Source: Mucilaginibacter lacusdianchii
GTDB lineage: Bacteria > Bacteroidota > Bacteroidia > Sphingobacteriales > Sphingobacteriaceae
Direction of reading: 5' to 3'
DNA: 64,000 bases
Assembly (NCBI RefSeq): GCF_009770985.1
Contig: NZ_WSRW01000001.1
Span: 372,001-436,000, forward strand
Shown: positions 42,693 through 48,829 of the stretch, one piece after another
Layout: every line of letters begins with the position of its first letter
How positions within the stretch are numbered: the first letter of the stretch is position 1
Translations under genes and position numbers: made by a program
Notes under the pieces: model-generated
Told to the model about the DNA's origin: nothing
Databases searched by the model: none
What the model saw: only the letters and a program-made list of their open reading frames with translations

Positions 42693-43310
42693 TTATTTGT
42701 CTACGATTACGAATGAACCCTTAGCTCCTGGGATAGAACCTTTAACTACCAGCAGGTTTTGCTCAGCAAATACTTTAACCACTTCAAGGTTTTGTACTTT
42801 AACACGAGCATTACCAGTTTGACCGGCCATACGCATACCTTTAAATACGCGTGAAGGCCATGATGAAGCACCCAGTGAACCTGGCGCACGCAAACGGTTG
42901 TGCTGACCGTGAGTTTGCATACCCACACCACCGAAACCGTGACGTTTTACAACACCCTGAAAACCTTTACCTTTTGAGGTACCTACTACATCCACAAAAT
43001 CTCCGGCAGCAAAAATATCTACGGTAACAGTGTCACCTAGATTTTTTTGATCTTCGAAAGTTTTGAATTCTACCAGTCTGCGTTTTGGCGTAGTACCGGC
43101 TTTTTGGAAGTGGCCTTTTAAAGGAGCAGGGGTGTTTTTTTCTTTTTGCTCATCATATGCCAGCTGAACAGCTGCATACCCGTCTGCATCTACAGACTTC
43201 ACTTGTGTAACTACACAAGGCCCAGCTTCGATTACTGTACAAGGAATATTCTTTCCTGTCTCATCGAAAATGCTGGTCATTCCTACTTTTTTACCAATAA
43301 TTCCTGACAT
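42693..43310 (-). CDS. rplC: 50S ribosomal protein L3 (uL3)
   Basis: 205 aa from ATG 43310 ([19 protein letters not shown]); a frame extension to 43358 would run through the structured leader and is rejected. '[58 protein letters not shown]' in pieces includes the Gln that is methylated by PrmB in E. coli. First gene of the S10-spc-alpha transcript here, because rpsJ is 5.2 kb upstream. Confidence 0.98.
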
Positions 43311-43671
43311 TTTCTTGTTTTTTTGTTTTGCCCATCGAAGCAGTAGGGCTTCGTTCAAGGCATAGTTGCCCCCGAAAGGGACGGCAAAGATAGGAATTTT
43401 TAATTAACTATCAAACAGTTACAAAATAATTTTTCGTTGTTTTTTAGTCTGATTCTCAGTGTTTAGACTGTGCAGTTTTCGACGGTAAAATGTTGCTTTG
43501 AGAAACAACGTCATAAATATAAATAAGTGCGATAAATCTTCTTCTATTTTGGTAGTATTTATTGACTGTTGGCTTATTAAGTGGTTACTGTATAATGGTA
43601 TCGATACGGTAGTGCTTCCTTGCGTTTTTTGATGCACGTAGGCAAATTCAGGTCGGTTGACTCGGATATTG
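43311..43671. other. Leader and promoter region of the rplC operon; no gene
   Basis: 361 bp between the tyrA-like gene (same strand, upstream) and rplC. It holds the rplC promoter (43385-43414), a leader of about 65-70 nt with a perfect 6-bp hairpin CGAAGC/GCTTCG (43336-43353) and an A-rich stretch just before the ATG. The AT-rich DNA at 43415-43671 includes a 72-codon frame (43419-43637) of low-complexity composition that I do not call. Confidence 0.6.
43385..43414 (-). promoter_or_regulatory. Promoter of the rplC (S10-spc-alpha) operon
   Basis: Minus strand: TTTG (TTG at 43412-43414), 19-bp spacer, TATCTTTG at 43385-43392. This is an essentially perfect Bacteroidetes housekeeping promoter; transcription should start near 43378. 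Confidence 0.75.
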
Positions 43672-44931
43672 TTATTTAACTGTTAATCGTCTAATCAGGT
43701 CGGCACTTTGCTTTTGCCCCTCTTTTAAGCGGTCCTGAAAAAATGTTTGTACCTGGTTAAAATGCTTTTTATAGCCTTCCATATCACCGTAGTTGATGAT
43801 CGACGCCCATTCGCGCACAGCAGAATGAAACTCCAGGTCATCTCCACGTATAGATTTATCATACAAAGCAGCCTGGATAGATTCTTCCAGCAATTCTTCA
43901 TCCTTAAATAAATATTCGGCAATGCCCAGGCGCAAACGGAAAGGCGGCGTTTGCCCTACCAAGTTATCATACGGGTTTACGCCCAGGTGATACCATGCAT
44001 CTACCATACTCAATATACTTAAGTGCGAATTTGGCTTACGTTCGCTCACATTTCCATGAAAGGTGAATTCATCCATAACCGAATCATTGAGCATGATCGG
44101 CTTGCGGCTTTCATGAAATACGAAGTCACGGGCTTTATATAACCGTTCTCTGAAGGCTTCCTCCTCTTCCTGTATCATCAACTTAAACAATTCCGATTCG
44201 GATTGCGCATAGCGCTTTACCTGCTGACGAGCGTAAGGGTTAAGAATAGCCAGCCCGGCATATACGTGCGCTTTGTAGCTAAATATGCGGAGGGTAATGA
44301 GAATCTTAACATTATCAATTCCTCCGAGATAAGAAGCATTCTCCCATGGGAAAAAGCCAGCTGATGCCCAAGCCGTACCCATGCTTTCGAAACCTACGTG
44401 CGTAACAGCTTGCGTATCGGCCACAATGCGGTCATGCTCGTGATAGTCGGGCAATTCTACAACATCAGATTTGATAGCGGTGAACAAATCTAACATGCGC
44501 TGATAGGCCTCATCGGTAGCACGATGGCGGATGAGAATCAGCTTTTGCCCTTCGGGTTCGAAGCCGCCACCATGCATGGCATGAAAAGTGACAATCTGCG
44601 CATCGGCCGGCAAATGTGCCTCAAACAAGGCAATCTCCGGACTTTTTACCGAAGTTTGACCGGCTACTATAGCGCCATATTTGGTTGATGGGCTGCACTC
44701 GGCCACCACTTTAGCCATATGATCGGCTTCTACAGAATAAATGATCAAGTCGCAGGTGCGGGATACTTGTTTGCCGTCGTCGAGCAATGCAACGCCTAGT
44801 GGAATTAATTCATGTTCTAGCGCTTCGCGATTTTGCGGTAAATCGCATCCACATACGGTATAACCGGCTTTAGCAAACGCCTTTGCATAAACCTTACCCA
44901 TATCACCCAAACCAATTATTCCGATGTTCAT
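43672..44931 (-). CDS. Prephenate dehydrogenase, fungal TYR1-like type
   Basis: 419 aa. N-terminal Rossmann fold 'IGIIGLGDMGKVYAKAFAKAGY' in pieces binds NAD(P). Then 'DLIIYSVEADHMAKVV', 'GQTSVKSPEI', 'VTFHAMHGGG', 'HDRIVADTQAVTHVGFESMGTAWA', 'LRIFSYKAHVYAGLAILNP' and 'SHLSILSMVDAWYHLGVNPYD'. This block order and the length resemble fungal TYR1 (about 440-450 aa) far more than ordinary bacterial TyrA (about 280-370 aa). It would convert prephenate to 4-hydroxyphenylpyruvate in tyrosine synthesis. No ACT or chorismate-mutase domain is seen. It sits alone inside the ribosomal cluster, with no aromatic-pathway neighbours. The assignment rests on recalled family patterns. Confidence 0.75.
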   Translation of the reverse strand: MNIGIIGLGDMGKVYAKAFAKAGYTVCGCDLPQNREALEHELIPLGVALLDDGKQVSRTCDLIIYSVEADHMAKVVAECSPSTKYGAIVAGQTSVKSPEIALFEAHLPADAQIVTFHAMHGGGFEPEGQKLILIRHRATDEAYQRMLDLFTAIKSDVVELPDYHEHDRIVADTQAVTHVGFESMGTAWASAGFFPWENASYLGGIDNVKILITLRIFSYKAHVYAGLAILNPYARQQVKRYAQSESELFKLMIQEEEEAFRERLYKARDFVFHESRKPIMLNDSVMDEFTFHGNVSERKPNSHLSILSMVDAWYHLGVNPYDNLVGQTPPFRLRLGIAEYLFKDEELLEESIQAALYDKSIRGDDLEFHSAVREWASIINYGDMEGYKKHFNQVQTFFQDRLKEGQKQSADLIRRLTVK

Positions 44932-45090: not shown

Positions 45091-45813
45091 ATGACTAAAT
45101 CATATATATTAAAAAGCCTAACCGCCATTATATTTGCGGCTACTGTGGTAACGGCCTCGGCGCAAGACTCGGCACGAGCCAAGCCCAAGGTTCCGGCTGC
45201 AACACCCAGATCTGCCGCTAGTCAGCCAGCAGGTGCAACAGCTAATCGCCCGGCAACGCCAGTCAACCCATATGCCGGTCGGCCGGTAACACCGTCACCT
45301 GTAGCGCCTAATGACAAAAGCTTAAACGGCCAGTACCAATATTTGCTGACTAAAATATACGGCTACCAGCGTCCGCAACTGTCGGCGTTTTATAAGAATA
45401 TAACTGATACGATTCGCATGCAGCGTCAAAAGCTGCAAGACGTACAACGCAAGCTAACCGCTCAAGGCAAAGCCGTACAAGACCTGCAGTCTGATGTATC
45501 TGCTAAAGAACAAAGTTTGAATGAATCCAATTCAAAGGCAGACGCCATCAGTTTCTTGGGAATACCGGTAACAAAGTCTACTTACAACTTAATAATGTGG
45601 GGATTGGTGCTTGTATTTGGCATAGTGACAGCTATTGTGCTGTTCCAATCTACCAGCGCCCGCCGCGAGGCCCGTTACCGCACCAAGTTGTATGACGAGC
45701 TGGATGAAGAGTATAAAACTTACAAAGTAAAAGCTAACGAGAAAGAGAAGAAGCTAGCCCGTGAATTGCAAACCGAGCGGAATAAATTGGATGAATTGCT
45801 GGGAAGAAGCTAA
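45091..45813 (+). CDS. Secreted/membrane coiled-coil protein of unknown function
   Basis: 240 aa. Signal peptide (1-24, ending ASAQ); Pro/Ala-rich linker (28-80); coiled coil (about 90-150, heptad-like 'RMQRQKLQDVQRKLTAQGKAVQDLQ' in pieces); one transmembrane helix (about 163-187, 'LIMWGLVLVFGIVTAIVLF'); then a highly charged cytoplasmic coiled coil (190-240, rich in Glu/Lys/Arg). I see no enzymatic domain. The topology (periplasmic coil, TM, cytosolic coil) suggests a structural or signalling bridge across the inner membrane. Divergent from the prephenate dehydrogenase gene. Confidence 0.7.
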   Translation: MTKSYILKSLTAIIFAATVVTASAQDSARAKPKVPAATPRSAASQPAGATANRPATPVNPYAGRPVTPSPVAPNDKSLNGQYQYLLTKIYGYQRPQLSAFYKNITDTIRMQRQKLQDVQRKLTAQGKAVQDLQSDVSAKEQSLNESNSKADAISFLGIPVTKSTYNLIMWGLVLVFGIVTAIVLFQSTSARREARYRTKLYDELDEEYKTYKVKANEKEKKLARELQTERNKLDELLGRS

Positions 45814-45873: not shown

Positions 45874-48246
45874 TTATTCTGTTCGTAAACTTTTTACCGG
45901 ATTAGCAATAGCCGCCTTTATGGCCTGGAAGCTTACGGTTAACAAAGTAATTACCATTGCACCCGCTCCTGCTGCCAAAAACACCCACCCTGATAAAGAG
46001 GTGTGATAATCATAACCTTGCAACCATTGGTTAAGATAATACCAAGCCAGCGGAATAGCGATAAAACAGGAAATGATAACCAAGGTTAAAAAGTCACGTG
46101 ATAGCATACTCCATAAGTTGTAAACAGATGCCCCCAACACTTTGCGCACACCTATTTCTTTAGTGCGCTGTTCGGCTACAAATGATGCTAAACCAAACAG
46201 TCCCAATGCAGAGATAAAGATAGCCAATACTGCAAAAAATGTAGCGAGGTTTCCGATACGTTCTTCGTCAGAAAACTTTTGAGCATACTCATCATCAGTA
46301 AATTTATATTCAAATGAGCTGCCCGGATCATATTTTTTAAAAACCCCCTCTACCTTGCCCAGTGCATCATTTACAGGCAAAGAAGGTTTCATTTTAATGG
46401 TTATTAAATTAGACCACCCATAATTGAGCATAAACACAGTAGGAACCATTTCGCGGTAGGGCGATTGCATAATCATGTCTTTTACTACCCCTATTACGGT
46501 ATAAGGCCTATCATTCCATTTTATTGTTTCGCCGATGATATTTTTGATACCAATTAATTTTACTGCGGCTTCGTTCACTAACATACTGCTGGTATCAGTA
46601 GTAAAGCTTCTTGAAAAATCGCGCCCTTCCTTAATTTGCCAACCTATTGTTTTTCCGTAATCATGGCTTATGGCTATGGTTCCAAATATGGGATTGGTGC
46701 CTGGATCTTTACCTTTCCAATCAAAACCAATATTATTGCTGTATATATCGGTTGATGGACTAGATGACTGAGCCATATTTTCAACTGCGCCTGTTTTCAG
46801 TAAATCATCTCTGAGCGCATCATAATGCCCTCTTATTTCGGGCGTATTCATGGCAATTGTTATTAGCCCTTCTCTATCATATCCAACCGGTCTGCTCTTG
46901 GCAAATTGTACTTGCTTAAACACGATGATAGTGCCGATGATTAAAGTAACAGATACGGTAAACTGAATAATCACTAACACTTTACGCGGCACCGCTGCAA
47001 AACGGCCTGCTTTAAAGGTTCCTTTTAAAACGGCAACTGGATTGAAACTGGATAAATAGAAAGCGGGATAACTGCCCGAAACTAAACCGGTGATAGCCGT
47101 AAAGGTTAAAGCCAATAGCCAAAACACAGGATTGCTCCACGGCAGGTGAATATCTTTTTCAGATAAGCTATTGAAGAAAGGTAAAAATAACAACACAAAT
47201 GCCATTGCCAACACAAATGCCAATACCGACATAACAACTGACTCGCTTAAAAACTGCCCAATGAGCTGCTGGCGCATTGACCCGATAGCCTTGCGAATGC
47301 CTACTTCTTTAGATCGTTTTTCGCTACGGGCCGTGCTTAGATTCATGAAATTGATGCAGGCCAGCAGTAACACAAATACACCGATAATACCAAACAACCA
47401 TACGAATTTTATACGGCCGCCAACCAGCCTACCTTCTTTAAACTCGCTTTGCAACCGCCATTTGTTCATAGGGTGCAACAATATCTCCTCATCGCCAGCC
47501 TTAAAATACTGGCCGGGTATACTTTTTACCTTTGCGGTGATTTTGTTAAAATCGGCTTGTTCTGAAATTTGTACAAACAACTGATGGCTATGATCGCCCC
47601 AGTATGTACTGGATGATTTTACGTATGGGTTCTCATCCACATACTTACTCCAAGGCATTAGTATTTGGGTGGTATGTAAAGTAGCGTTAGTGGGTATATC
47701 TTCATAAACACCGGCTACCTTCATATCTGTCTGATTATTGATACGTACCGTTTTACCCATAGGATCAGCGTCGTTAAACAGCACTTTAGCTACTGTCTCT
47801 GACAGTAACATGGACGTTTGGTCTTTTAATGCGTTTCGCCTTCCTTTAAGCATCTTTAGGGTAAGCATCTCCGGAAAACCCGGCTCAACCCACATACCTT
47901 GTTTAGATATCTTTTTGTCACCTACAGCTATTATATAGTCGCTGTTCCAAGTGGCCAATACCACGTGTTTAAAATCGGCCGAATGCTTTAATCTCAACTC
48001 ATTAGCCAATGGGATAGCTACTGCAGGGTGCGTGCCGCGGTGTCCATTAAAGGTTTGTGATGTCATGATCTGGGCAATGCGGTCATGGTTATCATGGTAA
48101 CGGTCAAATGATACTTCGTCCCAAATCCATAAGCCTATAAGTATAGCTACCGCCATGCCTAGTGCAAGTCCTACAATATTAATAAGTGAGTATACCTTAT
48201 TTTTTAAAAGGCCACGCCAGGCAATTTTGATGTAGTTTTTAAACAT
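45874..48246 (-). CDS. FtsX/MacB-type ABC transporter permease
   Basis: 790 aa. N-terminal TM helix ('NKVYSLINIVGLALGMAVAILIGLWI' in pieces, about 15-40), a large periplasmic MacB_PCD-type domain, three TM helices (about 285-400), a second TM plus periplasmic domain, and a final FtsX triplet (about 670-785). This duplicated layout is the common Bacteroidetes 'antimicrobial peptide transport system permease'. No ABC ATPase gene adjoins, so it must pair with an ATPase encoded elsewhere or act as an orphan. It ends at the shared terminator at 45831-45865. Confidence 0.88.
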   Translation of the reverse strand: MFKNYIKIAWRGLLKNKVYSLINIVGLALGMAVAILIGLWIWDEVSFDRYHDNHDRIAQIMTSQTFNGHRGTHPAVAIPLANELRLKHSADFKHVVLATWNSDYIIAVGDKKISKQGMWVEPGFPEMLTLKMLKGRRNALKDQTSMLLSETVAKVLFNDADPMGKTVRINNQTDMKVAGVYEDIPTNATLHTTQILMPWSKYVDENPYVKSSSTYWGDHSHQLFVQISEQADFNKITAKVKSIPGQYFKAGDEEILLHPMNKWRLQSEFKEGRLVGGRIKFVWLFGIIGVFVLLLACINFMNLSTARSEKRSKEVGIRKAIGSMRQQLIGQFLSESVVMSVLAFVLAMAFVLLFLPFFNSLSEKDIHLPWSNPVFWLLALTFTAITGLVSGSYPAFYLSSFNPVAVLKGTFKAGRFAAVPRKVLVIIQFTVSVTLIIGTIIVFKQVQFAKSRPVGYDREGLITIAMNTPEIRGHYDALRDDLLKTGAVENMAQSSSPSTDIYSNNIGFDWKGKDPGTNPIFGTIAISHDYGKTIGWQIKEGRDFSRSFTTDTSSMLVNEAAVKLIGIKNIIGETIKWNDRPYTVIGVVKDMIMQSPYREMVPTVFMLNYGWSNLITIKMKPSLPVNDALGKVEGVFKKYDPGSSFEYKFTDDEYAQKFSDEERIGNLATFFAVLAIFISALGLFGLASFVAEQRTKEIGVRKVLGASVYNLWSMLSRDFLTLVIISCFIAIPLAWYYLNQWLQGYDYHTSLSGWVFLAAGAGAMVITLLTVSFQAIKAAIANPVKSLRTE

Positions 48247-48523: not shown

Positions 48524-48829
48524 TCACACTTTGATTTCTACTTCAACACCGCTAGGTAATTCAAGTTTCATTAAAGCGTCTACTGTTTTAGAGTTAGAGC
48601 TATAAATGTCCAACAGGCGTTTGTAGCTGCACAATTGGAATTGCTCACGAGCTTTTTTGTTTACGTGTGGTGAACGTAATACAGTAAAAGTTTTCTTTTC
48701 AGTAGGTAAAGGAAGCGGTCCGCTTACTACAGCGCCGGTTGGCTTTACAGTTTTAACGATTTTTTCAGCTGATTTATCAACCAAGTTATAATCGTAAGAT
48801 TTTAATTTGATTCTGATTCTTTGGCTCAT
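48524..48829 (-). CDS. rpsJ: 30S ribosomal protein S10 (uS10)
   Basis: 101 aa. '[22 protein letters not shown]', '[28 protein letters not shown]' in pieces: canonical S10 (NusE), also an antitermination factor. In related bacteria it usually leads straight into rplC; here it ends the str operon at a terminator and rplC lies 5.2 kb away. 108 bp after fusA, with a hairpin in the gap. Confidence 0.98.

Follow-up and report, generated by a model that had tools for sequence, protein, structure and literature searches.

P0001, the protein encoded at positions 43672 to 44931 of the window (the whole stretch of 64,000 nucleotides analysed), is likely the sole prephenate dehydrogenase of its host and of the TYR1 subtype otherwise known from fungi, its gene having been acquired in the spacer between the ribosomal genes rpsJ and rplC by an ancestor within the Sphingobacteriaceae and mostly transmitted vertically, with loss of the native tyrA and of the aminotransferase gene beside it. 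The host genome, of the Mucilaginibacter group of this family, comprises 5.06 Mb in 24 contigs. P0001 would consist of a Rossmann domain that binds NAD(P), a catalytic core made of helices and, in addition, a C-terminal part that is helical throughout. It would convert prephenate by oxidative decarboxylation into 4-hydroxyphenylpyruvate, on the way to tyrosine.

The gene and its neighbourhood

The reading frame starts with an ATG and encodes 419 residues on the minus strand, which the preliminary description had not specified, and all the blocks listed in the preliminary description (GLGDMG, ADTQAVTH, MGTAWA, YAGLAI and NPYD) are found in its product. Homologues are about 74-89% identical throughout Mucilaginibacter and are conserved, at 59-89% identity, in hundreds of genomes, which indicates that P0001 is encoded by a real gene under selection. 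The rpsJ-rplC spacer contains this gene, a divergent ORF of 240 codons and a MacB/FtsX permease gene; no RNA element was found in the region. The features are the following:

42693..43358, minus strand: rplC (L3), downstream neighbour, whose true start is likely an internal ATG near 43310
43385..43415, minus strand: predicted Bacteroidota-type promoter for rplC, TTTG-N19-TATCTTTG, between the stop of the tyrA-like gene and rplC
43672..44931, minus strand: tyrA of the probable fungal TYR1 type, encoding the predicted prephenate dehydrogenase P0001, 419 aa (ORF, Pfam/NCBIfam, AlphaFold model)
43675..44139, minus strand: residues 265-419 of P0001, all-helical C-terminal part, probably in common with TYR1, no Pfam family
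44140..44931, minus strand: residues 1-264 of P0001, Rossmann domain and TyrA-like helical core with Ser94 and His117 (profile alignment, fold)
45091..45813, plus strand: orf240, divergent companion with a signal peptide, a coiled coil and a membrane segment, as read from its sequence
45874..48246, minus strand: MacB/FtsX-type permease, at the same place in only some close relatives
48524..48829, minus strand: rpsJ (S10), bordering the insertion upstream

Family and fold of P0001

P0001 is a member of the TyrA superfamily, that of the prephenate/arogenate dehydrogenases. Pfam detects its PDH_N domain at 27.3 bits, for a cut-off of 26.5, as well as a Rossmann domain; the PDH_C dimerisation domain is under its cut-off (13.8 bits for 22), and no chorismate mutase domain was found by the same search. 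In NCBIfam, its best-scoring profiles are without exception those of prephenate dehydrogenases, headed by the archaeal and gamma-proteobacterial types PRK08655 and PRK11199, which match residues 1-286 only and score far under their curated cut-offs (85.5 bits vs 464 for PRK08655, over profile positions 8-267 of 443). With PRK08507, the profile of ordinary TyrA, P0001 scores 28.8 bits for a cut-off of 295, which is exceeded by the ordinary TyrA of genome G507, with a score of 358. In addition, BLASTP finds no significant alignment between P0001 and the ordinary enzyme of a sister genome. Profiles and BLASTP thus agree in setting P0001 apart from the ordinary short enzyme, and the preliminary description was right to call the latter shorter: within the same family, it has about 280-298 residues and contains PDH_C.

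By sequence, the closest solved structure is that of soybean PDH1 (E 1.4e-13 with a profile); bacterial TyrA entries stand with it as the nearest PDB relatives, in sequence as in fold. The AlphaFold model of P0001 has a pLDDT of 90.6, and the solved folds nearest to it by Z score include the TyrA/PDH/ADH entries 4wji, 5whx, 2f1k and 2pv7; the matches to TyrA folds cover residues 1 to about 280, with Z scores of about 21-23. Residues 265-419 form an additional all-helical part in the model and correspond to no Pfam family; when folded alone, this part gives a poor model (pLDDT 65.6). A whole-length likeness to class II ketol-acid reductoisomerase, proposed by Foldseek, was rejected, the rmsd being near 18. 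No solved structure of a fungal TYR1 is present among the PDB matches found for P0001.

Active site and predicted substrate

In soybean PDH1, Ser101 and His124 are catalytic and residue 222 acts as a substrate switch, an acidic residue directing the enzyme to arogenate and a non-acidic one to prephenate (PMC5681985). In a profile alignment, these three positions correspond to Ser94, His117 and Phe217 of P0001. Ser94 and His117 are invariant, together with His166, Asp172, His178, Arg215, Lys220 and His222, in 134 homologues and in the approximate yeast TYR1 sequence discussed below, and position 217 is Phe in 133 of these homologues and Tyr in the remaining one. Since the residue at the arogenate-specificity position is non-acidic, prephenate is the expected substrate, and P0001 is predicted from its sequence to be a prephenate dehydrogenase. 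The same invariance holds for Asp30, where the second strand ends; an Asp at this place often accompanies NAD+.

Likeness to fungal TYR1

The yeast TYR1 sequence used as a query is an approximate one, written out without a database record and before any homologue other than P0001 itself had been seen. It has 454 letters, for a true protein which we take to be of 452, and must therefore contain small errors. P0001 (residues 3-416) is 46% identical to this approximate sequence, with an E value of 9e-135, the identity to it being 50% over the initial 267 residues, compared with 39% for the C-terminal part. As the query was not a database sequence, it could have echoed P0001. The two were therefore compared at the 48 sites where P0001 departs from the majority of 19 homologues from other genera: the yeast sequence agrees with the majority at 22 of them and with P0001 at 11, so that it carries independent information and is no echo of P0001. 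It is likewise 45.7% identical to P0001 and 46.9% to the median homologue, and is roughly equidistant from all members of the group (43-49% identity). This approximate TYR1 and P0001 also share the same best NCBIfam profiles, PRK08655 and PRK11199, as opposed to ordinary TyrA, which belongs to PRK08507 over its cut-off. This comparison is to be taken as a lead rather than as a database result. The fungal likeness put forward in the preliminary description holds over the full length, albeit against this one approximate yeast sequence, and does not extend to a direction of transfer.

When P0001 is set beside known enzymes, it would share with yeast TYR1 (Saccharomyces cerevisiae, EC 1.3.1.13) the block order and the C-terminal part, as judged from the approximate sequence, but is bacterial, has 419 residues instead of about 450 and lacks the yeast N- and C-terminal extensions. 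With the archaeal and gamma-proteobacterial TyrA of clade II (PRK08655, PRK11199), it has in common the Rossmann domain and helical core of residues 1-286; its C-terminal part is however unmatched there, it has no chorismate mutase domain and its scores are far below the curated limits. Soybean PDH1 (PDB 5t9e, 5whx) is superimposed with a Z score of about 22 over some 245 residues and its Ser101 and His124 have equivalents in P0001, but the identity is only about 20%, PDH1 is devoid of the C-terminal part and its position 222 is Asn where P0001 has Phe. Finally, ordinary Bacteroidota TyrA (PRK08507, mostly encoded beside an aminotransferase gene) is expected to catalyse the same reaction and takes that place in the metabolism of sister genomes, but is a PDH_N-PDH_C protein of about 280-298 residues that never shares a genome with the TYR1 type. 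Fungi, some archaea and gamma-proteobacteria have been grouped in TyrA clade II, with no mention of Bacteroidota members (PMC5681985), and our literature search found no paper tying a fungal-type TyrA to Bacteroidota.

Distribution and probable replacement of ordinary TyrA

Two draws of 395 genomes each, one from the phylum Bacteroidota and one from the class, contained the TYR1 type in 9 and 11 genomes, respectively, all of them Sphingobacteriaceae. A wide spread over Bacteroidota, which would have spoken against the reading of the preliminary description, is thus not what is observed in the sampled genomes. Within the family, the TYR1 type is present in 144 of the 251 genomes and in 12 of the 25 genera, at 59-100% identity, and ordinary TyrA (PDH_N search, E below 1e-26) in 80 of the 251. 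Both types are never found together (0/251), and 27 genomes have neither; the exclusion is highly significant by Fisher's test (p 2e-42, uncorrected for shared ancestry). No TYR1-type relative was detected in viral contigs or phages, and plasmids matched only through distant, ordinary prephenate/arogenate dehydrogenases. The nearest relative of P0001 may be found in a bacterium outside the sampled Bacteroidota. In the GapMind study, which included a Pedobacter, four TyrA-like proteins of the bacteria examined are reported to be confirmed by fitness data (PMC7311316).

The genomes with neither type include G437, G456, G484, G499 and G611 (Pedobacter-like, g3) as well as G442 and G452 (g4). Some of these 27 genomes are about 99% complete; such bacteria may require tyrosine or derive it from phenylalanine.

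In most of the ordinary-TyrA genomes of the family that were examined, tyrA follows an aminotransferase gene. The aromatic cluster of the host reads aroB, pheA, DAHP synthase-chorismate mutase, aroA, and contains within its limits neither a tyrA nor such an aminotransferase gene; the genome as a whole has no second PDH_N match over the cut-off. The absence of co-occurrence and the aromatic cluster without tyrA together lead us to regard P0001 as the sole prephenate dehydrogenase of the host, and the TYR1-type enzyme seems to have displaced the native TyrA in much of the Sphingobacteriaceae.

The reverse replacement seems to have occurred as well. In G554 (g3) and in G507, G512, G517 and G522 (g185), ordinary TyrA forms a separate clade with a support of 100, and a second lineage of ordinary TyrA seems to have replaced the TYR1 type there. 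The corresponding loci (L179 for G554; L182, L183, L186 and L187 for g185) carry a TyrA that stands apart from that of Sphingobacterium and g177. G554 retains the 240-aa companion ORF beside rpsJ.

History within Sphingobacteriaceae

The species tree was built from six ribosomal proteins (1004 positions), which served better than FusA, whose tree scattered the genera and was discarded for this purpose. Two genera with ordinary TyrA, g174 and g177, fall with full support outside all the carriers of the TYR1 type. The Sphingobacterium group, which also has ordinary TyrA, is placed among the TYR1-type genera with a weak support of 50-68; the topology corresponding to a single gain without reversal at Sphingobacterium is not the best one, and is not rejected either (p-AU 0.19). 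In a FastTree analysis, the fusA genes of G492 (L167) and G456 (L251) group inside Sphingobacterium (g2); for G492, this placement contradicts the ribosomal-protein tree and could reflect a fusA transfer.

The position of the gene adds to this picture. A TYR1-type gene lies between, or adjoins, rpsJ and rplC in many genera, among them the ones that diverge most from the window, and has been relocated in several Pedobacter-like genomes (L151, L152, L159 and L161). In G419, G422 and G401, which belong to the early-branching genera g174 and g177 with ordinary TyrA, rpsJ and rplC are separated by about 340 bp or less; in G444, from these genera too, the spacer is not short and contains inserted transposase-like ORFs. 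The TYR1-type gene probably entered the rpsJ-rplC spacer once and was then mostly inherited vertically. According to the scenario that we propose, an ancestor within the Sphingobacteriaceae would have gained it there, a single gain being the simplest case, the native aminotransferase-tyrA cassette would then have been lost, and the vertical descent of the new gene would have been interrupted by a few later reversals to ordinary TyrA.

Origin of the TYR1-type gene

Because the TYR1 type is lacking, in the sampled genomes, from the basal genera of the family and from the remainder of the phylum, the family appears to have received it from outside. The donor was probably either a fungus or some third lineage from which fungi obtained the gene as well. 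We give about an even chance to the more specific possibility that a fungal housekeeping gene for tyrosine synthesis passed to an ancestral sphingobacterium, came to lie between rpsJ and rplC, took the place of the native tyrA in most of the family and was kept throughout its radiation, a core biosynthetic enzyme of bacteria being thus replaced by a eukaryotic one.

Alternatively, the TYR1 type could be an ancient form, present early in bacteria or archaea and surviving in fungi and Sphingobacteriaceae after its loss elsewhere. The N-terminal part of P0001, which is nearest to the archaeal and gamma-proteobacterial profiles, and the single clade II that unites fungi with some archaea and gamma-proteobacteria (PMC5681985) would both fit such an origin. 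We nevertheless hold it to be unlikely, as neither 395-genome draw yielded a match outside Sphingobacteriaceae, the early-branching g174 and g177 have ordinary TyrA, the gene is inserted in the rpsJ-rplC spacer, a short one in these two genera, and descent alone would need very many losses. That the type arose in Sphingobacteriaceae and was then transferred to a fungal ancestor, as its restriction to this family among the bacteria sampled could suggest, is less probable still: the lack of the type in the basal genera and in the rest of the phylum makes the family itself a recipient, and the approximate yeast TYR1 sequence, instead of falling inside one branch, is about as distant from every member. 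Least probable of all, despite a PDH_N score barely above the cut-off, is a TyrA-like dehydrogenase acting on another substrate, such as arogenate or an unrelated metabolite, with tyrosine made otherwise, given the strict exclusion with ordinary TyrA across the 251 genomes, the conserved catalytic Ser and His, the Phe at the arogenate-specificity position and the lack of another TyrA candidate over the cut-off in the host genome.

The TYR1 kind of enzyme is already known, and the interest of the present case, which we rate as moderate, lies in its bacterial occurrence and in the clean replacement. Reports of gene flow from eukaryotes to bacteria are, to our knowledge, far rarer than those of the opposite direction. 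A gene from outside that fully replaced an enzyme of core amino-acid metabolism in a clade this large and well sequenced would, if our interpretation is true, provide a clean case of such flow, whose timing could be studied. Annotation is concerned too, since tools that seek ordinary TyrA could list such bacteria as auxotrophic for tyrosine. Work on the fungal enzyme could in turn use a bacterial one of the TYR1 type as a convenient model.

Ribosomal context and companion gene

The promoter predicted upstream of rplC is not peculiar to the window. Among the 52 loci that have rplC downstream on the same strand, at no more than 4 kb, a site of the TTTG-N19-TATCTTTG type is present in the gap in 52/52, these loci being related and not 52 independent cases, vs 4% of shuffled gaps. 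Judging from this motif, the main ribosomal run seems to have its own promoter. A predicted separate promoter for rplC means that the location of the tyrA-like gene needs no functional link to the ribosome. The preliminary description had found the ribosomal location unexpected: the gene does lie there, but as an insertion in the rpsJ-rplC spacer, with a predicted promoter proper to rplC downstream, and gives no evidence of a ribosome-linked role. An operon shared by the tyrA-like gene and the ribosomal genes was also considered and rejected, owing to the promoter in the gap.

In the Sphingobacterium group, unrelated genes break the link between rpsJ and rplC (L221-L223, L227 and L228), from which this junction appears to be unusually plastic in the family. 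The companion orf240, for which no Pfam family was matched, keeps its place in 122 of 136 loci, next to either rpsJ or the tyrA-like gene, and is also retained in genomes devoid of the TYR1-type gene (L191 and L195).
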